Positions 35,531-48,793 of a stretch of DNA of 49,030 bases are shown here, in pieces (the first letter of the stretch is position 1; each line of letters starts with the position of its first letter). Below the pieces are notes generated by a model. That model was not told the DNA's origin, did no database searches, and saw only the letters and a program-made list of their open reading frames with translations. Source of the stretch: Dactylosporangium sp. AC04546 (lineage in GTDB: Bacteria; Actinomycetota; Actinomycetes; Mycobacteriales; Micromonosporaceae). A program made the position numbers and the translations under genes. The stretch is from positions 1 through 49,030 of the forward strand of contig NZ_JAHYSG010000090.1 in NCBI RefSeq assembly GCF_022095675.1, written 5' to 3'.

Positions 35531-35824
35531 TCAGGGCGTGACGTCGGTGAAGTGCTCGACGCGCGGCGCGCCGTCGAAGAACGGGCCGATGAGCGCCCGC
35601 CACTGCGTGAAGCGGTCGGTGGCGCGGAAGTTGTCGAGGTGCGCGTCGACCGAGTCCCACTCGACCAGCAGCACGAACCGGCTCGCCGACTCGATGCCCC
35701 GGGTCATCCGCACCGAGCGGCAGCCGGGGGTGGTCGAGAGGATCTCGTGGCCCTTACGGTATGCGGCGGCGAACTCGTCCTCGCGGCCTTCGAGCACGTC
35801 GATGAGCGCAACTTCCAACACCAT
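35531..35824 (-). CDS. ABM-domain (antibiotic biosynthesis monooxygenase type) protein
   Basis: A 97-residue dimeric alpha+beta barrel protein. The pattern VLEVALIDVLEGREDEFAAAY, PGCRSVRMTRGIESASRFVLLVEWDS and AHLDNFRATDRFTQWRALIGPFF is characteristic of the ABM family, which includes cofactor-free oxygenases and haem-degrading enzymes; the specific reaction cannot be told. It is convergent with the membrane protein gene (4-base gap) and divergent from pnuC (21 bases). Confidence 0.85.
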   Translation of the reverse strand: MVLEVALIDVLEGREDEFAAAYRKGHEILSTTPGCRSVRMTRGIESASRFVLLVEWDSVDAHLDNFRATDRFTQWRALIGPFFDGAPRVEHFTDVTP

Positions 35825-35845
35825 CCGGCAAGGGTAAAGGACACC

Positions 35846-36454
35846 GTGCCCGACTGGCTCACCTCACCCGCGTTCCACGCCTTCGGCGCCCCGACGACGT
35901 GGGCCGAGCTGCTGGGCTTCCTCACCGGCCTGCTCACCGTCTTCCTCGTGGTCCGCCAGCACATCGCGAACTGGCCCCTCGGCATCGCCAACGTCCTGCT
36001 CCTCATGGTCGCGTTCTGGCACGTCGGCCTCTACGGCGACGCGTGGCTCCAGCTCGTCTACGTCGCGCTGGGCCTCTACGGCTGGTGGCAGTGGACGCTC
36101 GGCCGGACGCGCACGGTGCGCGCCACGACCCGCACCGAGTGGTGGGCCCTCGCCGTCGCCGGTGTCCTGCTGAGCGTGCTGCTGTGGTGGTACCTCGACC
36201 GCTTCACCTCCTCCACCGTGCCCTGGCCGGACGCGGTCACGACCGCCGTGTCGCTGCTGGCGACCTACGGCCAGACGCTGCGCCTGGTCGAGAGCTGGTA
36301 CCTCTGGATCGCCGTCGACCTCGTCTACATCCCCCTCTACGGCTACAAGGACCTGTGGCTGACCGCGATCCTCTACGTCGCGTTCCTGGGCCTGTGCGTG
36401 CTCGGCCTGCGCGAGTGGCGCGCCGCGTGGAGGACGGCATGGCGCACGGCCTGA
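35846..36454 (+). CDS. pnuC: nicotinamide riboside transporter PnuC
   Basis: A 202-residue integral membrane protein of the PnuC family, which imports nicotinamide riboside by facilitated diffusion, driven by its phosphorylation inside. It has about seven membrane segments. Signature stretches are ELLGFLTGLLTVFLVVRQHIANWPLGIANVLL (including W-P-x-G-I-x-N), YGWWQWT and ESWYLWIAVDLVYIPLYGYKDLWLTA. The GTG at 35846 has AAAGG upstream. It overlaps the NadR-like gene by 16 bases, so import and phosphorylation are coupled. Confidence 0.93.
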   Translation: MPDWLTSPAFHAFGAPTTWAELLGFLTGLLTVFLVVRQHIANWPLGIANVLLLMVAFWHVGLYGDAWLQLVYVALGLYGWWQWTLGRTRTVRATTRTEWWALAVAGVLLSVLLWWYLDRFTSSTVPWPDAVTTAVSLLATYGQTLRLVESWYLWIAVDLVYIPLYGYKDLWLTAILYVAFLGLCVLGLREWRAAWRTAWRTA

Positions 36455-37506
36455 TCGTCGGCAAGTTCTACCCGCCGCACGCCGGCCACCATCACCTCGT
36501 CGAGACCGCCGCCCGCGCCTGCACCGACGTGACCGTCGTCGTCGCGCCGTCCACAGTGGAGTCGATCCCGCTCGCCGACCGCCTCGGGTGGCTGCGCGAG
36601 GTCCACGCCGCCAGCCCGCACGTGCGCTTCGTGGGCGTCTACGACGACCTGCCGATCGACTACGGCGACCCGGCCGCGTGGGAGGCCCACTGCGCCCTCT
36701 TCCGCGCGGCGGTCGGCCCCCGCGCCGTCGACCTCGTCTTCTCCTCCGAACCATACGGCGAGGAGCTCGCCCGGCGCTTCGGCGCCAGGCACGTCCCCGT
36801 CGACCCCGGCCGTGCCGCGGTGCCGGTGTCGGGCACCGCCGTCCGCGGCGACCCGGTCGCCCACTGGGACCGGCTCGCCCCGCCCGTGCGCGCCTGGTTC
36901 ACCCGACGCGTCATCGTCGTCGGCGCCGAGTCGACCGGCACCACCACCCTGGCCCGGGCGCTCGCCGCGCAGCTGCGCCTGCGCCGCGGCGCCTTCGCCA
37001 CCACCGCCTGGGTCCCCGAATACGGCCGCACGCTGACCTCCATCAAGATGGCCGGACTGGCACCCGGTCAGGGCGTGGAGGACCTCGTGTGGACGCGCGA
37101 CGACTTCGTCACCGTCGTGCGCGAGCAGAACGCCGCCGAGGACGCCGCCGCCCGGACCGGTGGACCCATTCTGGTCGGGGACACCGACAGTTTTGCCACG
37201 GCGATCTGGGAGGAGCGGTACCTCGGCAGCACCTCACCGGCGGTTCGTGACGCGGCGCGACGACCCGCCCTCTACCTGTTGACGAGCGACGAGGGCGTCC
37301 CGTTCGAGGACGACGGCATGCGCGACGGCGAACACCTGCGCGGCTGGATGACCCAGCGGTTCCGCGACGAGCTCGCCGCCCGCGACGTGCCCTGGATCGA
37401 GCTCGCCGGACCGTATCGCGCCCGCCTCGAAACCGCCCTCCAGGCCTGCGACGCGCTGCTCGCCAAGGGCTGGAACCTGGCCACGCCGCTGCTCCCACGG
37501 CGCTGA
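36439..37506 (+). CDS. nadR: NadR-like NMN adenylyltransferase / nicotinamide riboside kinase
   Basis: A 355-residue two-domain enzyme for NAD salvage. The N-terminal adenylyltransferase has GKFYPPHAGHHHL (HAGH 14-17) and VSGTAVRGDP (ISxTxxR-like, 131-136). The C-terminal kinase fold starts at about 155 with VIVVGAESTGTTTLARAL (162-170), where the P-loop lysine is replaced by Thr, and contains ILVGDTDSFATAIWEERYLG. There is no N-terminal helix-turn-helix, so unlike enteric NadR it is not a repressor. GGAGG lies 5 bases before the ATG, inside the end of pnuC. Whether the kinase half is active is open. Confidence 0.88.
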   Translation: MAHGLIVGKFYPPHAGHHHLVETAARACTDVTVVVAPSTVESIPLADRLGWLREVHAASPHVRFVGVYDDLPIDYGDPAAWEAHCALFRAAVGPRAVDLVFSSEPYGEELARRFGARHVPVDPGRAAVPVSGTAVRGDPVAHWDRLAPPVRAWFTRRVIVVGAESTGTTTLARALAAQLRLRRGAFATTAWVPEYGRTLTSIKMAGLAPGQGVEDLVWTRDDFVTVVREQNAAEDAAARTGGPILVGDTDSFATAIWEERYLGSTSPAVRDAARRPALYLLTSDEGVPFEDDGMRDGEHLRGWMTQRFRDELAARDVPWIELAGPYRARLETALQACDALLAKGWNLATPLLPRR

Positions 37507-37543: not shown

Positions 37544-38482
37544 ATGACGATCAGCCAGCACATCACGTCGTTCGCCGGCCTGCCGGTGACCGAGTTCCAG
37601 CCCGGCGTGGTCGACCGGCTGGACGCGGCCGGCACACCCCGCGGCGCGGTCGCCTGGCGGATCGAAACCGACTACGAGGACAGCGTCGAGGTCTTCACCT
37701 CCACGCTCGACCGGCTCCTCGACGTCGTCGGCGGCGAGCACGTGCACGCCCTGGTGATCGGGCAGTGGGGCAGTGCCTACGACACCGCGCCGCCGCTCGA
37801 CCGGCTCATCGCCGTGCGTGACCGCATGCCCAACCTCAAGGCCCTCTTCGTCGGCGAGATGACCTACGAGGAGTGCGAGATCTCCTGGATCCACCACGGC
37901 GAGATCGCCCCGCTGCTCGGCGCCTTCCCGGGCCTGGAGGTGCTGTGGATCCGCGGCGCCGACGGGCTGCGGCTCGCCCCCGTCCGGCACCGGCGGCTCA
38001 AGGAGCTCGGCATCGAGAGCGGCGGCCTGTCCGCCGCGGTGGTCCGCGGCATCGCCGACTCGTCGTTCCCCGCGCTCACCAACCTGGAGCTGTGGCTCGG
38101 CGTGCGCGAATACGGGGGAGACGTCGGCATCGACCACCTCACGCCGATCCTCGGCGGCGCCGAGCTGCCGGCGCTGCGCCGCCTCGCCCTGCGCAACGCC
38201 GAGATCGCCGACCTCGTCGCCGAGGCGCTCGCCGCGGCGCCGGTCGTGGCCCGGCTCGAGGAGCTCGACCTGTCGCTGGGCATCCTCTCCGACCGCGGCG
38301 CCGAGGCGCTGCTGCTCGGCCAGCCGCTGACCCACCTGAGACGGCTCGGCCTCAGCCACCACTTCATCTCCGCCGACCTCGGCGAGCGCCTCGCCGCCGA
38401 GCTGCCCGGCGTCGAGGTCGACCTCTCCGACGAGCAGGAGGCCGACGACCCCACCGACCGCTACGTCTCGGTGGCCGAGTGA
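37544..38482 (+). CDS. STM4015-family protein (leucine-rich-repeat-like)
   Basis: A 312-residue protein of the uncharacterised STM4015 family. The N-terminal third (FAGLPVTEFQPG, VAWRIETDYEDSVEVFTSTLDRLL) is followed from about residue 100 by leucine-rich-repeat-like units: LKALFVGEMTYEECEISWIHHG, LEVLWIRGADGLRL, LKELGIESGGL, LTNLELWLGV, LRRLALRNAEI and LEELDLSLGILSDRGAEALL. No catalytic residues are apparent, so a binding or scaffold role is likely. It is the first gene of a five-gene operon. The ATG of the next gene shares one base with its stop. Confidence 0.85.
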   Translation: MTISQHITSFAGLPVTEFQPGVVDRLDAAGTPRGAVAWRIETDYEDSVEVFTSTLDRLLDVVGGEHVHALVIGQWGSAYDTAPPLDRLIAVRDRMPNLKALFVGEMTYEECEISWIHHGEIAPLLGAFPGLEVLWIRGADGLRLAPVRHRRLKELGIESGGLSAAVVRGIADSSFPALTNLELWLGVREYGGDVGIDHLTPILGGAELPALRRLALRNAEIADLVAEALAAAPVVARLEELDLSLGILSDRGAEALLLGQPLTHLRRLGLSHHFISADLGERLAAELPGVEVDLSDEQEADDPTDRYVSVAE

Positions 38483-39507
38483 TGTTCACCGTCGTCGGGA
38501 TCCGCGGGCACCGCCGGGTGCGGCTGTTCCGCGACGCCGCGCTCGCCGCGGGGCTGCCCGAGCCGGCGGTCGTCGACTGGCGCGAGGTGATCGCGGGCGA
38601 GTTCGCGATCGACCGCTCCACCCTCGTGCGGCTGGAGTCGCCCGGCGAGGACGCCGAGGTCGACCGCCTGCTGCGCGGCGCGTCCACGCCGGCCGCGCAC
38701 GGCGAGATCGTCGGCCTCCAGGCCTGGCACCGGGGGCTGATCGCGGCCGCCCGCCGCGTCGAGGCCCAGGGCGCCCCGCTGCTCACCGCCGTCGACGACC
38801 TTGCCGTCCTCTTCGACAAGCGCCAGTGCCACGCGCGGCTCGCCGCGCACGGCGTCGCGGTGCCGGAAGCGTTCACAGCGGAGGCCTATGAGCTGGTGCG
38901 CGCCCACGGCTGGCCGAGGGTCTTCGTCAAACCGGCCCACGGCAGCTCCGCGTCCGGCGTCGTCGCGCTCGCGTTCAACGGCCGCCGCGTCAGCGCCTAC
39001 ACGTCCGCCGTCCTCGACCACGGCCGGCTCTACAACGTGCTGCGCGTCCGGCACTACACCGACGAGCGCCTCGTCGCGGCGATCGTCGACCGGCTCGGCG
39101 CCGACGGCCTGCACGTCGAGCGCTGGTTCCCGAAGGCCGCCCACGACGGGCGCGTGTTCGACCTGCGCGTCGTCGTCATCGCCGGCCGGGCCAGCCATGT
39201 CGTGGTCCGCACCAGCCGCTCGCCGATGACCAACCTGCACCTCGGCAACGCCCGCGGCGACCTGGCCGCGGTCCGCGCCGCGGCGGGGGAGGAGCACTGG
39301 GCGGCCGCCATGCGCACCTGCGAGCAGGCCGCGGCCTGCTTCCCGGGCAGCCTCCACGTGGGCGTCGACCTGATGTTCGCCCCCGGCTACGCCCGGCACG
39401 CCGTCGCCGAGGTCAACGCGTTCGGCGACCTGCTGCCCGGGGTGCTCGCCGACGGCCGCGACACGTATGCGGCCGAGATCGCAGCACTCGCGGGGGTGCC
39501 GGCATGA
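38482..39507 (+). CDS. STM4014-family ATP-grasp-like protein
   Basis: A 341-residue protein of the STM4014 family with an ATP-grasp layout: the ATP-binding Lys and flexible loop in VFVKPAHGSSASGV (K150, 154-160), a second Lys/Arg region in FDLRVVVIAG (227-235), and the Mg-binding acidic/Asn set in HVGVDLMF (D296) and AEVNAFGDLLPG (E310, N312). ATP-grasp enzymes usually activate a carboxylate as acyl phosphate and join it to an amine or thiol. Start by TGATG overlap with the STM4015 gene; its stop overlaps the next start (ATGA). The substrate is unknown. Confidence 0.85.
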   Translation: MFTVVGIRGHRRVRLFRDAALAAGLPEPAVVDWREVIAGEFAIDRSTLVRLESPGEDAEVDRLLRGASTPAAHGEIVGLQAWHRGLIAAARRVEAQGAPLLTAVDDLAVLFDKRQCHARLAAHGVAVPEAFTAEAYELVRAHGWPRVFVKPAHGSSASGVVALAFNGRRVSAYTSAVLDHGRLYNVLRVRHYTDERLVAAIVDRLGADGLHVERWFPKAAHDGRVFDLRVVVIAGRASHVVVRTSRSPMTNLHLGNARGDLAAVRAAAGEEHWAAAMRTCEQAAACFPGSLHVGVDLMFAPGYARHAVAEVNAFGDLLPGVLADGRDTYAAEIAALAGVPA

Positions 39508-40298
39508 GGTCCCTCCTCGGCAGCCACGACCTGCTGTTCGTCACGCTCGACACGCTGCGCTTCGACGTCGCCGCCGACCTGCTCGCCGCCGGTCGCACGC
39601 CCAACCTGCGGGCGGTCCTCCCCGGCGGCCGCTGGGAGCGGCGGCACACCCCGGCCTCGTTCACCTACGCCGCGCACCACGCGTTCTTCGGCGGCTTCCT
39701 GCCGACCCCGGTGACGCCCGGCCCGCACACCAGGCCGTTCGCGGCCCGGTTCCCCGGCAGCACCACGATCGGCGACGACACCTGGGAGTTCGACGCGCCC
39801 GACGTGGTCACCGGCCTGCGCGCCGCCGGCTACCACACGATCTGCGTCGGCGGCGTCGGCTTCTTCGCGATGACCTCCCCGCAGGGCGGTGTCCTGCCCG
39901 GCCTGTTCGACGAGGCGCACTGGACCCGCGAGTTCGGCGTCACCAACCCCGGCTGCTTCGAGGCGCAGCTCGACCGGCTCAAGACCGTGCTGCCGGCCGA
40001 CGGGCCGCTGTTCACGTTCGTCAACGTCGCCGCGCTGCACCAGCCCAACCACCACTACCTGCCCGGCGCCGCCGACGACAGCGTCGAGTCGCACGCGGCC
40101 GCGCTGGAGTACGTCGACCGGCACCTGCCGGCCCTCTTCACGCTCGCCACCTCCCGCGGGCGGCCCTGCCGGGTCATCATGTGCAGCGACCACGGCACCG
40201 CCTACGGCGAGGACGGGCACACCGGCCACCGCATCGGGCACGAGGTCGTCTGGACCGTGCCGTATGCGGAGTTCACGCTGGCGGCCGGCGCATGGTAG
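39504..40298 (+). CDS. STM4013/SEN3800-family hydrolase (alkaline phosphatase fold)
   Basis: A 264-residue predicted metal hydrolase of the alkaline phosphatase/sulfatase superfamily. Metal-binding Asp in VTLDTLRFD (D16), a likely nucleophile in TPASFTYAAHH, and the C-terminal metal motifs CSDHGTAYGEDGHTGHRIGH (D229, H230, H242/H246) are present. N174 and H179 in NVAALHQPNHHY are further candidates. It has no signal peptide, so it works in the cytoplasm on a phosphate, sulfate or phosphonate ester. It overlaps its neighbours by 4 and 7 bases. Confidence 0.85.
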   Translation: MRSLLGSHDLLFVTLDTLRFDVAADLLAAGRTPNLRAVLPGGRWERRHTPASFTYAAHHAFFGGFLPTPVTPGPHTRPFAARFPGSTTIGDDTWEFDAPDVVTGLRAAGYHTICVGGVGFFAMTSPQGGVLPGLFDEAHWTREFGVTNPGCFEAQLDRLKTVLPADGPLFTFVNVAALHQPNHHYLPGAADDSVESHAAALEYVDRHLPALFTLATSRGRPCRVIMCSDHGTAYGEDGHTGHRIGHEVVWTVPYAEFTLAAGAW

Positions 40299-41599
40299 CC
40301 CTCGGCCCGCCGTACCAGGGCTATCTCTACGCCTATCCGCACAAGACCGCCTACCGCCCGCTGCGCCCCCGCCCGCGCCTCGCCGACGTCTGGGCCGGCG
40401 AACCCACCGGCGCGCTGTTCCTCTACGTCCACGTCCCGTACTGCGAGATGCGCTGCGGCTTCTGCAACCTCTTCACCCGCACCGGCGCCGGCGAGGACCA
40501 CGTCGCCGCCTACCTCGACCAGCTGGAGCGTCAGGCCGGCCGGGTCGCGGCGGCCCTGCCCGGCGACCCCGGCTTCGCGCGGGCGGCGATCGGCGGCGGC
40601 ACCCCGACGTACCTCGGCGCCCATGAGCTCACGCGGCTCTTCGACCTGATCGAGCGCGCCACCGGCGCCGACCTGCGCGCCGTGCCACTGTCCGTCGAGA
40701 CGTCACCGGCGACCGCCACCGCCGACCGGCTCGCGGTGCTGCTGGAGCGCGGCGCCACCCGGATCAGCATCGGCGTGCAGAGCTTCCGCGACGCCGAGGC
40801 GCACGCCGCCGGCCGCCCGCAGCGCCGCGAGGAGGTCGACCGCGCCCTCGACACGATCCGCGCCGCCGGCCCGGCCGACCTCAACATCGACCTCATCTAC
40901 GGCATCCCCGGCCAGACCGTCGCGACCTGGACCGAGTCGCTGCGCACCGCGCTCACCTGGCGTCCCGAGGAGTTGTACCTCTACCCGCTCTACGTCCGCC
41001 CGCTGACCGGCCTCGGGCGCCGCGGCCCCGGCGCCGACCCCGACTGGGACGCGCAGCGGATGCTCCTGTACCGCCACGCCGCCGGCCTGCTGGCCGACGC
41101 CGGCTACCGGCAGCTGTCCATGCGCGCCTTCCGCCGGGCCGACGCGCCGGCCGCCGACGCCCCCGACTACTGCTGCCAGGACGACGGCATGGTCGGCCTG
41201 GGCTGCGGCGCCCGCTCGTACACCACGGGCCTGCACTACTCCTTCGACTACGCCGTCAGCGTGCGCCAGGTCCGCGGCATCCTCGACGACTACCTGCGCC
41301 GCCCGCCCGCCGACTTCGACGTCGCCGAGGTCGGCTTCGCCCTCGACGCCACCGAGCAGCGCCGCCGCTGGCTGCTCAAGACCCTGCTGCGCGCCGAGGG
41401 CGTCGAGCCGGCCGGCTACCACGCGCGCTTCGGCACCGACGTCGACGACGACTTCCCGTCCCTCGCCGCGCTGCGCGACGCCGGATACCTCGCCGGCCAC
41501 CGCCTCACCGCCGAGGGCCTCGCCCACTCCGACGCGATCGGCCCGTGGCTCGTCTCGGCCGACGTCCGCGCGGCCATGGCCGGACACGTGACCCGATGA
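40292..41599 (+). CDS. STM4012-family radical SAM protein (HemN/HemW-like)
   Basis: A 435-residue radical SAM enzyme. The iron-sulfur motif is YCEMRCGFCNLF (C51, C55, C58). The SAM-binding GGGTPTYL, the SVETSPAT strand, ISIGVQSF and NIDLIYGIPGQT are the HemN/HemW-type core, followed by a C-terminal winged-helix-like region. It is named oxygen-independent coproporphyrinogen oxidase-like in many annotations, but its place in this operon argues against haem synthesis. The stop overlaps the STM4011 gene (ATGA). Confidence 0.88.
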   Translation: MVALGPPYQGYLYAYPHKTAYRPLRPRPRLADVWAGEPTGALFLYVHVPYCEMRCGFCNLFTRTGAGEDHVAAYLDQLERQAGRVAAALPGDPGFARAAIGGGTPTYLGAHELTRLFDLIERATGADLRAVPLSVETSPATATADRLAVLLERGATRISIGVQSFRDAEAHAAGRPQRREEVDRALDTIRAAGPADLNIDLIYGIPGQTVATWTESLRTALTWRPEELYLYPLYVRPLTGLGRRGPGADPDWDAQRMLLYRHAAGLLADAGYRQLSMRAFRRADAPAADAPDYCCQDDGMVGLGCGARSYTTGLHYSFDYAVSVRQVRGILDDYLRRPPADFDVAEVGFALDATEQRRRWLLKTLLRAEGVEPAGYHARFGTDVDDDFPSLAALRDAGYLAGHRLTAEGLAHSDAIGPWLVSADVRAAMAGHVTR

Positions 41600-42546
41600 C
41601 CACCGCCAACCGGCCGCCCGAGGCCGACCCGACGAGCACCGTCAACCGGCCGCTCACGGCTGGCCCGACGAGGATCCTCTACCGCGGCCCGCTGGCGAGC
41701 TGCAACTACGACTGCCCGTACTGCCCGTTCGCCAAGCGCCACGACCCGCCCGACCTGCTGCGGGCCGACCGCGCCGCGCTCCGCCGGTTCGTGGGCTGGG
41801 TCCGCGACCACCCGGCCGAGCCGGTCGAGGTGCTGTTCACGCCCTGGGGCGAGGGGCTGACCCGGTCCTGGTACCGCGACGCGCTCGTCGAGCTCTCCCA
41901 CCTGCCCCATGTCGCCCGGGCCGCCATCCAGACCAACCTCTCCGCCCGCCTCGGCTGGGTCGCCGACGCCGACCCGGCGACGCTCGCACTGTGGTGCACC
42001 TACCACCCGGGCCAGGTCCCGTTACCCCGCTTCCTCGCCGCCTGCGCGACGCTGCGCGCCCACGGCATCCGCCACTCGGTCGGCGTCGTCGGCCTGCCCG
42101 AGCACCACGCCGCCGCCGTGGCCCTCCGACGGGAGCTCCCCGATGACGTGTACCTCTGGGTGAACGCCGCCGACGGCCACTCGTACACGCCGGCCGAGGA
42201 GGCGGCCTGGACCGCGATCGACCCGCTGTTCGGCTACAGCGTCCGCCCCCACGACTCGCGCGGCCGCCCGTGCCGCACGGGCACCGAGGCGATCTCGGTG
42301 CTGGGCGACGGCACGGTCCGCCGCTGCCACTTCGTCCAGCGGCCGCTGGGCAACCTCTACGACGGCACGTGGGAAGCGAACCGCCGCAAGGTCCCGGTGA
42401 CGATCGGCGCACCAGCGGCCCCGGCCGCGAGCGAGCCCTGCCCCAACGACACCTGCGACTGCCACATCGGCTACGTCCACCTGGAGACGCTGCCCCTGTA
42501 CGACGTCTTCGCCGCCGGCATCCTGGAACGCTTCCCACACCGCTGA
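41596..42546 (+). CDS. STM4011-family radical SAM protein
   Basis: A 316-residue radical SAM enzyme with motif CNYDCPYCPF (C36, C40, C43) after LYRGPLAS. The C-terminal part has more Cys: PCRTGTEAISVLGDGTVRRCHFVQRPLGNLYDG and EPCPNDTCDCHIGYVHLETLPLY, resembling a SPASM or Twitch auxiliary iron-sulfur region. Such C-terminal clusters are common in peptide- or protein-modifying radical SAM enzymes. It is the last gene of the operon; a 12-bp-stem hairpin follows after about 60 bases. Confidence 0.88.
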   Translation: MTTANRPPEADPTSTVNRPLTAGPTRILYRGPLASCNYDCPYCPFAKRHDPPDLLRADRAALRRFVGWVRDHPAEPVEVLFTPWGEGLTRSWYRDALVELSHLPHVARAAIQTNLSARLGWVADADPATLALWCTYHPGQVPLPRFLAACATLRAHGIRHSVGVVGLPEHHAAAVALRRELPDDVYLWVNAADGHSYTPAEEAAWTAIDPLFGYSVRPHDSRGRPCRTGTEAISVLGDGTVRRCHFVQRPLGNLYDGTWEANRRKVPVTIGAPAAPAASEPCPNDTCDCHIGYVHLETLPLYDVFAAGILERFPHR

Positions 42547-42647: not shown

Positions 42648-44078
42648 TCAGGTCTGCACCAGCGGCTGGTACTCCGCCTCGGTCAGCCCGAACGTCCACG
42701 CCACCCCGGCCCGGGCGCTGCGGGTGTCCGGCGGGACGCGCAGCCAGTACACCCGGCTGGTCCCGTCCGGCTCCGGCGTGCTGTTGACGACCTCGACCAT
42801 CGTCAGCGGCTCGTCGTCGGCGAAGCGCAGCTGCCACAGCACGCCGCACTCGTCCTCGCTGACGCGGTGGGCGCCGGCCTCGCGCAGATACCGCTCATAC
42901 CCGAAGTGCTCCACCATCACGCGCCGCAGCTCGGCGTTGCGCTCGGCCGCGATCTCCTGGTGGGTCAGGCGAGACAGCCGGCGCACCAGGTCCGGCGGGA
43001 TCGGCATGCCTCGCCAGGCGTGCAGGCCGAACCCGTCGCGGTAGCGCACCGCGGGCGTGTCGGCCGCGTGCAGCCGGCCCACGTTGTCCCGGTGCAGCTC
43101 GACCGGGCGCTCGCTGAGGATGGCGACGTCCGCGTAGGGCCACCACCAACCGGCCGACCGCGCCACCCCGGCCAGACCCGCCAGCCGCTGCACCGCGTGC
43201 AGCGCCGCACCACCGCCGAACGGCTGCGGGGTCTCCGGGGCCTGCACGGTTTGGGCTTGCGCGGTTTGCGAGGTTTGCGGAGTCCTAGTCGTAGTCGTGG
43301 TCTGCGCGGCTTGCGCCGAGGTCGCCCGGGCTCCGGTCACGGCCGCGCCGTACCACCCGGCGAGGCTGTCCCCGCCCGGGCCCGCCAACGGCGCCGGAGC
43401 GGGGGAGGCCGCTGCAGGGGAGCCCGGAGCACGGGGGCCCGGTGGGGAGGCCGGCGTGGAGGAGCCCGAAGCACGCGAGCCCGGTGCGGAAGAACCCGGT
43501 GCGGCGCCGGCCGGGGCCGAGCCGACCGGCCCGTCCCCGGCGGCGACCGCGTCGAAAGCCGCCAGCCACCCCGCGTCGTGCTGCCCCCCGACAGCATCCA
43601 GCAACACGGCGCGGGCGTGGGCCGGCAGCTCCGACCGCAGGTGGGTGCGCAGCGGCACCGCGACCCGGTCGTTCACCATCCGCCAGGCGTCGGCGCCGCA
43701 CGCCGACCACAGCGCGGCCCACCCGTCCGGCCCGAGCAGCGCGTGCACCTCGGCCCGGGCGGCGGCCCACGGCTTCGTGCGCACCGCCGCCCGCACCGAC
43801 GGGCCGGCCGTGCCGGCCACGGGCGGGCAGCCCTGCGAGCTGAGCTGGAACGCCACGCCCCCGTCGGGGGCGACCGTCGACAGCCCGGTCAGCAGCGCGG
43901 CCGCCCGCGCCGCGGCCAGCGGTGACGCGAACCAGACGATGTGCTTCGGCGGACGCAGGCCGGCCGAGCGGTACGCCAGCCGCACCGCGTCCTCGGCGGC
44001 CCCCCGGCCGGCGGGCGCCGTCGACAGCCCGGCGGCGAGCCACTTGGCGGCGACGGCACCCAGCGCTTCGGCGGTCAT
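42648..44078 (-). CDS. DUF6745-domain protein with low-complexity insert
   Basis: A 476-residue protein of the DUF6745 type, recognised by the C-terminal signature VGRLHAADTPAVRYRDGFGLHAWRG followed by RRLTHQEIAAERNAELRRVMVEHFGYERYL. The N-terminal helical part (VWFASPLAAARAAALL) belongs to the same family. Between them, about residues 190-300, lies a Ser/Pro/Gly/Ala-rich then Thr/Gln-rich stretch. The ATG overlaps the stop of the small upstream gene (TGATG). The function is unknown; the family is not known to be enzymatic. Confidence 0.82.
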   Translation of the reverse strand: MTAEALGAVAAKWLAAGLSTAPAGRGAAEDAVRLAYRSAGLRPPKHIVWFASPLAAARAAALLTGLSTVAPDGGVAFQLSSQGCPPVAGTAGPSVRAAVRTKPWAAARAEVHALLGPDGWAALWSACGADAWRMVNDRVAVPLRTHLRSELPAHARAVLLDAVGGQHDAGWLAAFDAVAAGDGPVGSAPAGAAPGSSAPGSRASGSSTPASPPGPRAPGSPAAASPAPAPLAGPGGDSLAGWYGAAVTGARATSAQAAQTTTTTRTPQTSQTAQAQTVQAPETPQPFGGGAALHAVQRLAGLAGVARSAGWWWPYADVAILSERPVELHRDNVGRLHAADTPAVRYRDGFGLHAWRGMPIPPDLVRRLSRLTHQEIAAERNAELRRVMVEHFGYERYLREAGAHRVSEDECGVLWQLRFADDEPLTMVEVVNSTPEPDGTSRVYWLRVPPDTRSARAGVAWTFGLTEAEYQPLVQT

Positions 44079-44398
44079 CAGTCGGCCACCGGACGCCACG
44101 AACCAGGCACATACTCCCGCTGGCGCACCACCTTGTAGGAGCCGGCGGGGATGCCGATCGCGCTGTGCTCCTCGTGGACGACCCGAGCCCGGGTGACGAT
44201 GCGCACGAACAGGCGGTCGACGTCGTCCCGGTCGGCGAGCAGCATCACATCCGGCCCGACGATCACGTGGGCGTGGCCGGTGGCCTCGCCGCGGGCGAGG
44301 ATCATGCGGCCCGACCGGTCGCGCGGGGCCGGCACGGCCGTGGCCGGGACCTCCGCGGCGCTCACGGGCACCAGCAGCACATCTCCTTGGCGATACAC
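44078..44398 (-). CDS. conserved hypothetical protein paired with DUF6745
   Basis: A 106-residue soluble protein. Distinct stretches are YRQGDVLLVPV, ARGEATGHAHVIVG, VHEEHSAIGIPAGSYKVVRQREYVPG. The His-rich GHAHV and HEEH parts could bind metal, and the fold looks like a small beta-barrel. I recall such proteins beside DUF6745 genes, but I know of no assigned function. The GTG at 44398 has GGAGG 6 bases upstream, and its stop overlaps the DUF6745 start, so the two are made together. Confidence 0.78.
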   Translation of the reverse strand: MYRQGDVLLVPVSAAEVPATAVPAPRDRSGRMILARGEATGHAHVIVGPDVMLLADRDDVDRLFVRIVTRARVVHEEHSAIGIPAGSYKVVRQREYVPGSWRPVAD

Positions 44399-45799: not shown

Positions 45800-46803
45800 A
45801 TGCAGGAGATCGCACAGCAGGGCCATCTGACGGCCCCTGCGGTGTTATGCCCGTTTCCGCCGCGGATCTCGCCCCACGCCGACGAGGTGCAGCGCTGGTC
45901 GCTGCACTGGGCGACCCGGCACGGCTTGCTCGAGCGCCCCGGCGCCCGGCAGGCCTTCGCGCGGGCCCGGTTCGCCAACCTGATGGCCCGCGCCCACCCC
46001 GACGCCGGCCCGGCCGAGCTCCAGCTCGCCACCGCGTGGCTGATCGGCATCTTCGTGCTCGACGACCTGCTGGAGAAGGCCCTGGTCCGTGCGCCGGGCC
46101 CGACCCGGGCGGCGGTCGACGGGTTCGTGCGCCGGCTGCGCCACCAGCACGCCGACGGCGGCGAGCTGGCCGGGGCGCTCGGCCGGGCGCTCACCGGTGC
46201 GCTCGACGAGGTGTGGCGGCGCACCGAGGAGCGGGTCAGCCCGGCCTGGCGCGAGCGGTTCGTCGGGCACGTCGCCGACTACCTCGACGGCACCCTGTGG
46301 GAGGCCGGCAACCGCGCGCAGGACCGCCCGCCCCTGCTGCACGAGTACCGCACGATGCGCTACCACAGCGCCGCGACCGAGATGTTCTTCGACCTCATCG
46401 AGCCCATGCACGGCGTCGAGGCGCCCGCGGCCCTGCTCGCCGACCCCGACTTCGCCGTCATGCGGCAGTCCGCCGGCATGATCATCGGAATCTTCAACGA
46501 CCTGGTCTCATGGCCGAAGGAGGTCGCCGTCGGCGACCACCACAACATCGTCTTCGCGTTCCAGCGCGAGCACCGCCTGTCGCTGCAGGACGCCGTCTAC
46601 GCCGCGGTCGCCGAGCACGACGCGCACGTCACGACCTTCATGGCGGCCCGGGACCGGCTCGGCGCCGTGAACCCCGGGCCGTGCGCCGACGACCTGGTCC
46701 ACTGGATCCGCGGGAACCTCGACTGGTCGCTGGAGTCGGGCCGGTACACCCCGGATATCCAGGACGTCCCGGCCCGACTTCCCGAGCAGCGAACTCCGGA
46801 GGA

Positions 46804-46807
<4 letters not shown>
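45800..46807 (+). CDS. class I terpene synthase
   Basis: A 335-residue terpene cyclase. All signatures of bacterial type I enzymes are present: acidic metal motif DDLLE (D88-E92), the NSE triad NDLVSWPKE (N233, S237, E241), the arginine sensor in EYRTMRY, and the C-terminal [15 protein letters not shown] with the RY pair at 315-316. Length fits a mono- or sesquiterpene synthase working on a linear prenyl diphosphate. No prenyltransferase or P450 is nearby, so the product and any tailoring steps are not predictable. The stop overlaps that of typA on the other strand. Confidence 0.9.
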
Positions 46808-48669
<1,862 letters not shown>

Positions 48670-48793
48670 AACGCCATTGTTCCAGGCCTCCGTTGCATGC
48701 CCGCAAGGACTGTGCACGCTGTGACGAAGCCCGCCGCACGGGGCAGCGCCCCGGCCACCGAGCGGTTAGCCTACGGGCACGGGGAGGTAGACA

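Follow-up and report, generated by a model that had tools for sequence, protein, structure and literature searches.

The stretch of DNA analysed here (the window) comprises 49,030 nucleotides of the actinomycete Dactylosporangium sp. AC04546 (contig NZ_JAHYSG010000090.1, assembly GCF_022095675.1). At positions 37544 to 42546 of its forward strand lie five overlapping genes of the STM4015, STM4014, STM4013, STM4012 and STM4011 families, which the original prediction, made from the sequence, took for an undescribed multi-enzyme pathway. The NCBI family names come from Salmonella loci and carry no function, despite the spread of the families over five phyla. The analysis presented here points to a protein-tail modification system, in which the leucine-rich-repeat protein STM4015 would be the substrate, charged on its terminal glutamate and remodelled by two radical S-adenosylmethionine (SAM) enzymes; we give this reading a probability of about one half.

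The five-gene cassette and its conservation

The five reading frames run along the forward strand without an internal stop. The first (37544..38482) encodes STM4015, the proposed ribosomally made substrate (NCBIfam NF038076, 342 bits against a cut-off of 275). It is followed by STM4014 (38479..39507; NF038074, 410 bits against 175), a predicted ATP-grasp ligase of the LysX/ArgX/RimK kind; by STM4013 (39504..40298; NF038075, 383 bits against 250), a putative hydrolase of the alkaline-phosphatase/sulfatase fold; by STM4012 (40292..41599; NF006067, 600 bits against 380), a HemN-like radical SAM enzyme; and by STM4011 (41596..42546; NF038073, 380 bits against 200), a radical SAM enzyme with a twitch-like set of C-terminal cysteines. 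Each of the five proteins exceeds the curated cut-off of the family to which it had originally been assigned. STM4014 starts either at a GTG (38479) or at an ATG (38482). Successive genes overlap by 4, 4, 7 and 4 bases, the first overlap falling to 1 base with the ATG start, for which the predicted overlaps of 1, 4, 7 and 4 bases are correct. Short gaps separate some neighbours in annotated plasmid copies, so that overlap is not universal.

Gene order was compared across 88 loci, made up of 80 actinobacterial loci (the best 80 of 458 STM4011 relatives, all bearing actinobacterial names), seven plasmid loci and the window. The cassette is complete at 83 of them, and the order STM4015-STM4014-STM4013-STM4012-STM4011 is identical in all 83. 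Plasmid cassettes of the same order occur in Methylobacterium, Deinococcus, Paenibacillus, Salmonella and Streptomyces, and members of the families span Actinomycetota, Deinococcota, Bacillota, Bacteroidota and Pseudomonadota. Four of the families (STM4015, STM4011, STM4014 and STM4013, with STM4012 outside the search) were also sought in 296 genomes of the phylum. They score above cut-off in the same six genomes, and no genome in the sample holds one of the four above cut-off without the other three. Were genomes independent, which they are not, one coincidence of six shared genomes would be expected with a probability of about 1 in 9e11. At E<=0.001, with no cut-off applied, the STM4011, STM4014 and STM4013 models match in 12, 59 and 58 of the 296 genomes, the matches below the cut-off being mostly short stretches of 18-46 bits, as against six genomes each above it. 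The original prediction had inferred a pathway conserved in distant phyla and had named as support that its members co-occur in one order and are absent together, and both the invariant order and the want of lone families bear this out. Scattered single members of the four families, which it had named as evidence to the contrary, do not occur above cut-off in this sample, although STM4013 paralogues and broken loci do exist.

These exceptions speak against a strictly conserved set. Five of the 88 loci are incomplete: L033 and L041 reach contig ends, L031 and L042 have no STM4014 in place, and L073 (3742-6460) starts within STM4013, whose latter part is followed by STM4012 and STM4011 and preceded by 3.7 kb of unrelated DNA. 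At L035, STM4012 is divided between two frames. On a Bacteroides finegoldii plasmid (L101, 4873-8890), STM4013 and STM4012 are reduced to fragments, while STM4015 carries an N-terminal WGR domain and STM4011 is fused to a Cof-type HAD domain. A second STM4013 paralogue is present in one of the six cassette genomes. In the two genomes with no STM4014 in place, an above-cut-off STM4014 lies elsewhere; it adjoins a full STM4015 in the genome of L042, and in that of L031 the match beside it was confined to the final 43 residues of a frame resembling STM4015. Judging from these two cases, STM4014 appears to remain close to STM4015 even when it lies outside the operon. On the whole, the survey supports a five-gene set that is real, intact and conserved across distant phyla.

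The glutamate-ended tail of STM4015

STM4015 of the window is a protein of 312 residues, in which leucine-rich repeats are followed by an Asp/Glu-rich linker and a short tail. A profile of 16 STM4015 sequences matches PDB entry 2ra8 at 8.4e-78, which makes this structure a solved relative; the alignment of 16 contains no invariant or near-invariant cysteine. The acidic, unconserved linker occupies positions -8 to -22 (38414..38458, forward strand). The last seven codons (38459..38479, forward strand) encode RYVSVAE, in which the terminal Glu312 is the proposed modification site. Between copies of STM4015 at the same locus (38 pairs from 22 loci), identity is 59% in the body and 16% in the linker, and rises again to 72% in the tail.

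How constant is the last residue? Of the 120 STM4015 copies with an in-locus stop, 118 end in Glu, and the other two look frame-shifted. Among the 331 complete homologues listed, 328 do so; two of the exceptions are chimera-like and one truncation-like. The homologues were the best 120 each of 2102, 241 and 418 matches, giving 356 distinct sequences, from which 25 truncated or unclear ones were dropped. In the four enzymes, taken as controls, the most frequent last residue has a frequency of 0.36 in STM4014, 0.31 in STM4013, 0.26 in STM4011 and 0.49 in STM4012. A set of 408 distinct tails, chosen beforehand for their terminal Glu, has Ser, Thr, Gly or Ala in front of that Glu in 405 cases and an aromatic residue inside the last eight positions in 406; the latter could be a second modification target. 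Position -2 is Ser or Thr in only 264 of the 408 tails, which makes it unlikely that this residue forms a constant ester or amide crosslink, and a crosslink of the graspetide type was rejected, Gly or Ala occupying the position in many tails. The conservation of the tail suggests a core-like element in the sense of ribosomally synthesized and post-translationally modified peptides (RiPPs).

For the substrate, two options had been left by the original prediction: a molecule encoded elsewhere, or the repeat protein itself. The evidence favours the latter, since the last residue of STM4015 is nearly constant, as it is in the carrier proteins of a related enzyme; the chemistry is a matter that we infer. 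A precursor peptide inside the operon, for which no room had been seen, is rejected, the genes overlapping and the tail pattern having its single match in the whole genome at STM4015 of the window (the search used one degenerate pattern of this tail form at TAA and TGA stops, with TAG and other tail forms outside it).

STM4015 is also the only gene multiplied at the locus, with one copy at 63 loci, two at 17, and three, four and five at one locus each. Five tandem STM4015 genes and a fragment precede single enzyme genes in Actinomadura atramentaria (L046, 1964-6845), as do four in Streptomyces sedi (L071, 2398-6492). STM4015 is also found outside the operon, again with a tail ending in Glu, at L010 and at L038 (748-1707, reverse strand). 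Multiple copies with differing bodies and linkers and like tails would also fit a set of adaptors for different clients. According to this alternative, the repeats hold a client, either a protein or a small molecule, and the tail docks on STM4014 or on a radical SAM enzyme, the true substrate being encoded elsewhere. Docking peptides at protein C-termini can match modification sites in conservation, and the WGR domains (PF05406) that some STM4015 proteins carry, for example in Bacteroides, would be an added binding module. However, the best candidate clients, a DUF6745 protein and a protein of ~106 residues encoded beside the operon, were not found at 21 of the 83 complete loci (several with short flanks), and some of the closest relatives of STM4014 act on protein or peptide carboxylates. 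Docking as the sole role of the tail is, in our judgement, unlikely.

Two features of the protein ends weigh against the tail-modification reading. Apart from its terminal Glu, the tail varies between lineages: it is mostly R-[YF]-[VIT]-[AS]-V-x-E in actinobacteria, R-[YF]-V-A-L-G-E in Deinococcus, and Y-x-P-M-x-T-E or similar in many matches of the Salmonella and Bacteroides searches. Moreover, DUF6745 (last-residue frequency 0.95) and the ~106-residue protein (1.00) have conserved ends as well, and STM4012 shows conservation just inside its C-terminus, so a conserved end alone is no proof of a modification site.

The enzymes and the proposed chemistry

STM4014 has both the predicted fold and the conserved polar residues of an ATP-grasp enzyme. 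Its nearest solved sequences (profile, E ~1e-5) are LysX (1uc8/1uc9) and 3vpd, and its predicted model (predicted local distance difference test score, pLDDT, 91) is structurally best matched by 3vpb, 3vpd, 5k2m and RimK. The protein thus appears nearest to LysX, ArgX and RimK, enzymes acting on the C-terminal Glu of proteins, through a sequence kinship that is weak but consistent. RimK extends the C-terminus of ribosomal protein S6. In the LysW route to lysine and arginine, the ligase couples the amine of its substrate to the C-terminal Glu of the carrier, at the gamma-carboxyl group, and replacement of this Glu in Natrinema causes arginine auxotrophy (passages in PMC10433800). Given the precedents of LysW and of RimK with S6, the terminal Glu of STM4015 would be a natural acceptor for STM4014.

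STM4011 has eight invariant cysteines (C37, C41, C44, C227, C245, C283, C288 and C290, counted from 41593) in seven distant sequences and 88 from the loci. With a CxxxCxxC motif and the C-terminal cysteines of an auxiliary cluster, it is classed as twitch/SPASM-type, cluster binding being predicted. The last five cysteines are spaced as in SkfB (6efn); overall similarity is weak, both to SkfB (22.6 bits) and to an anaerobic sulfatase-maturating enzyme (17.5 bits). STM4012 has as solved relatives HemN (1olt, over residues 33-288) and the methyltransferase NocN (9p2u, over 39-403 of 435) and falls below the HemN/HemW cut-offs (hemN_rel 145.7 against 205.4 bits; hemN 119.1 against 324.95 bits). 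In addition to C52, C56 and C59 (residue numbers being one higher than counted from the ATG), it has two extra conserved cysteines, C296 in all 85 sequences and C306 in 95%, by which it differs from HemN, HemW and NocN. STM4013 matches the Pfam Sulfatase family at 31.1 bits (cut-off 25), and this match and a conserved Asp/His set (D16, H179, D229, H230, H242 and H246, all invariant) place it by sequence in the alkaline phosphatase/sulfatase superfamily. The residues expected of an ATP-grasp enzyme, a hydrolase and two radical SAM enzymes, as originally named, are all in place.

Paralogues of STM4013 also occur in other actinobacterial gene contexts (L015, 8968-9762; L017, 9819-12777); the neighbours at L017 are a MoaA-like radical SAM protein and a kinase-like frame. 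A distant STM4013-like hydrolase lies on Agrobacterium Ti plasmids (L019, 8001-8861), where models of the other six proteins found no match in the fetched region. Could the operon then build a small molecule, with STM4015 as a regulator or structural partner and a tail that has no chemical role? The other contexts of STM4013 would agree with this, and small-molecule substrates are common for HemN-like enzymes and for hydrolases of the alkaline-phosphatase fold. It would, however, leave unexplained both a near-universal last residue behind a variable linker and the relocated STM4014 genes, which in two genomes adjoin a further STM4015 or the tail end of one. We regard it as very unlikely.

In the tail-modification reading, STM4015 would not be an enzyme; it would be a ribosomally made substrate, composed of a repeat body, a variable acidic linker and a Glu-ended tail. 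STM4014 would activate a carboxylate of the terminal Glu and join it to an amine, most likely that of an amino acid. Twitch-type radical SAM enzymes such as SkfB have peptide substrates and HemN-type enzymes decarboxylate or methylate, which suggests that the charged tail is modified further: STM4011 and STM4012 would alter the attached residue or the surrounding tail. STM4013, in some lineages together with a HAD phosphatase, would take off a phosphate-type group. The product may remain bound to STM4015, since the operon contains no peptidase to release it.

Alternatively, STM4015 might be a carrier in the strict LysW sense, on whose terminal Glu a small molecule is built before its release as a free cofactor or natural product. 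The kinship of STM4014 with LysX and ArgX would suit such a carrier, as would the several enzymes that follow the ligase and the small residue that nearly always precedes the Glu, like the Gly of the EDWGE motif. Release is harder to account for, as no peptidase is encoded in the operon, and the flanks (surveyed at 40 of the 80 loci with a crude filter) show as their sole peptidase-like recurrence a LysM/M23 protein (8 of 40 loci) that looks like a cell-wall enzyme. Furthermore, a single product would need no set of divergent carriers at one locus. A releasable product is improbable on these grounds.

Several points concerning the ligase and the chemistry tell against a charged STM4015 tail as well. 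The similarity of STM4014 to LysX is weak (E ~1e-5 by profile); it scores 25.9 bits with the LysX_arch model, for a cut-off of 275.6, and 19.6 bits with RimK, for a cut-off of 143.4. Within about 2 Z of its best structural match lie also other ATP-grasp enzymes, namely DcsG (21.1), PurK (21.0), PPIP5K2 (20.5) and D-Ala-D-Ala ligase (20.4). The GSWGR motif is absent from STM4014 of the window (read by eye), and the EDWGE end is replaced by RYVSVAE in the window and found in none of the displayed homologue tails. The chemical steps are proposed by analogy, and the reading offers no reason for a repeat body.

Partner genes and relation to known systems

Downstream of the operon, on the reverse strand, lie a DUF6745 gene (42648..44078, ATG start at 44078; PF20530, 309 bits) and a gene for a protein of ~106 residues (44078..44398). 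Alignments of 10 and 66 sequences of the latter reveal invariant His/Glu motifs (H42, H44, H75, E77 and H78). Its predicted model is beta-rich, with a mean pLDDT of 86 that drops below 50 in the last 12 residues, and no close solved match was found. Both genes are present at 62 of the 83 complete loci, and the pair accompanies the operon in further genera and phyla. DUF6745 occurs in nine of the 296 genomes, four of them among the six cassette genomes (Fisher p ~6e-6), and a more divergent pair is also found without the cassette. The pair is a frequent partner and no obligatory part of the cassette. The original prediction, right about the five genes, had included neither this pair nor the STM4015 tail and 2RA8. 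In Methylobacterium and Deinococcus (L011, 5792-6814; L012, 12019-13029; L014, 12000-13001), a stretch resembling leucine-rich repeats precedes the DUF6745 domain (by eye), and the C-termini of DUF6745 proteins, of the form Y-x-P-L-x-x-T or similar, recall the Y-x-P-M-x-T-E tail found in part of the STM4015 family.

Further out in the window, PnuC-like and NadR-like frames lie upstream (~35780-37506), and a terpene-cyclase-like frame adjoins a TypA GTPase gene downstream (~45800-48717), all named by eye from translations. A link with typA, which adjoins the cassette in Salmonella and lies ~4 kb away in the window, was rejected: the gene was found at only 3 of the 88 loci screened, two of them from Dactylosporangium, and is taken as a chance neighbour. 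Recurrent clusters in the surveyed flanks reach at most 11 loci each and look like lineage synteny. Seven representatives of 14 listed clusters were checked by Pfam (GDSL lipase, beta-lactamase fold, LysM/M23 peptidase, helix-turn-helix-cupin, DUF3463 radical SAM, squalene-hopene cyclase and TetR); the remaining ones resemble antisense frames (by eye). A phage origin was rejected, the five genes having no PHROG match, while the two partner genes match weakly to phage families of unknown function. As regards a defence system, the only PADLOC match among the seven proteins scanned was a weak one of STM4012 (PDC-M51A, 28.9 bits).

Among known systems, the closest parallel is offered by LysW/ArgW with LysX/ArgX, the nearest solved relatives of STM4014: a ribosomally made protein with an acidic stretch, ending in a small residue and Glu, next to an ATP-grasp ligase of the same fold. 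In contrast to the small zinc proteins LysW and ArgW with their Zn-binding cysteines, STM4015 is a repeat protein of ~310 residues, present in up to five copies per locus, and it is accompanied by radical SAM enzymes and a hydrolase. Neither STM4015 nor STM4014 has the motifs of the carrier C-terminus (EDWGE) and of the ligase (GSWGR), as given in a passage of PMC10433800. With RimK and S6 the system shares an ATP-grasp ligase, close in predicted fold, that would extend the C-terminus of a folded protein, but STM4014 lies far below the RimK family cut-off. The graspetide pair PsnB/PsnA2 also combines an ATP-grasp enzyme (PsnB being among the best Foldseek matches of STM4014) with a ribosomally made precursor; unlike it, STM4015 is large and folded, with the terminal Glu alone constant. 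The operon is therefore filed as an ATP-grasp/radical SAM system of protein or peptide modification outside the LysW, RimK, graspetide and RiPP classes, the first two because defining features of both are absent.

No published function was found in open-licence PubMed Central papers, in keeping with the earlier statement that no assigned reaction was known; functional studies of the STM4011-STM4015 families, of such combinations of enzyme types and of DUF6745, and a paper on the solved structure 2RA8, were all sought there and not found. In three papers, STM4015 is listed among hypothetical genes (PMC2784778), an RpoN-dependent signal is noted at STM4013 with the predicted site oppositely oriented (PMC3844500), and STM4010 appears in a gene list (PMC4632510). 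New in the present analysis are the kinship with 2RA8, the Glu tail behind a variable linker, the amplification of STM4015 only, the kin of STM4014, the SkfB-like cysteine spacing and the two partner genes.

The tail of STM4015 narrows an undescribed pathway to a single question: is its last residue charged by STM4014? If it is, the system would represent a widespread kind of radical SAM chemistry borne by proteins and would explain the 2RA8 structure. In a bolder form of this reading, to which we lend only tentative credence, the exposed Glu tail of leucine-rich-repeat proteins would be charged by a LysX-type ligase and rebuilt by the two radical SAM enzymes into a permanent protein-borne group, one enzyme set serving several divergent repeat proteins and so placing the same chemical group on different binding surfaces.

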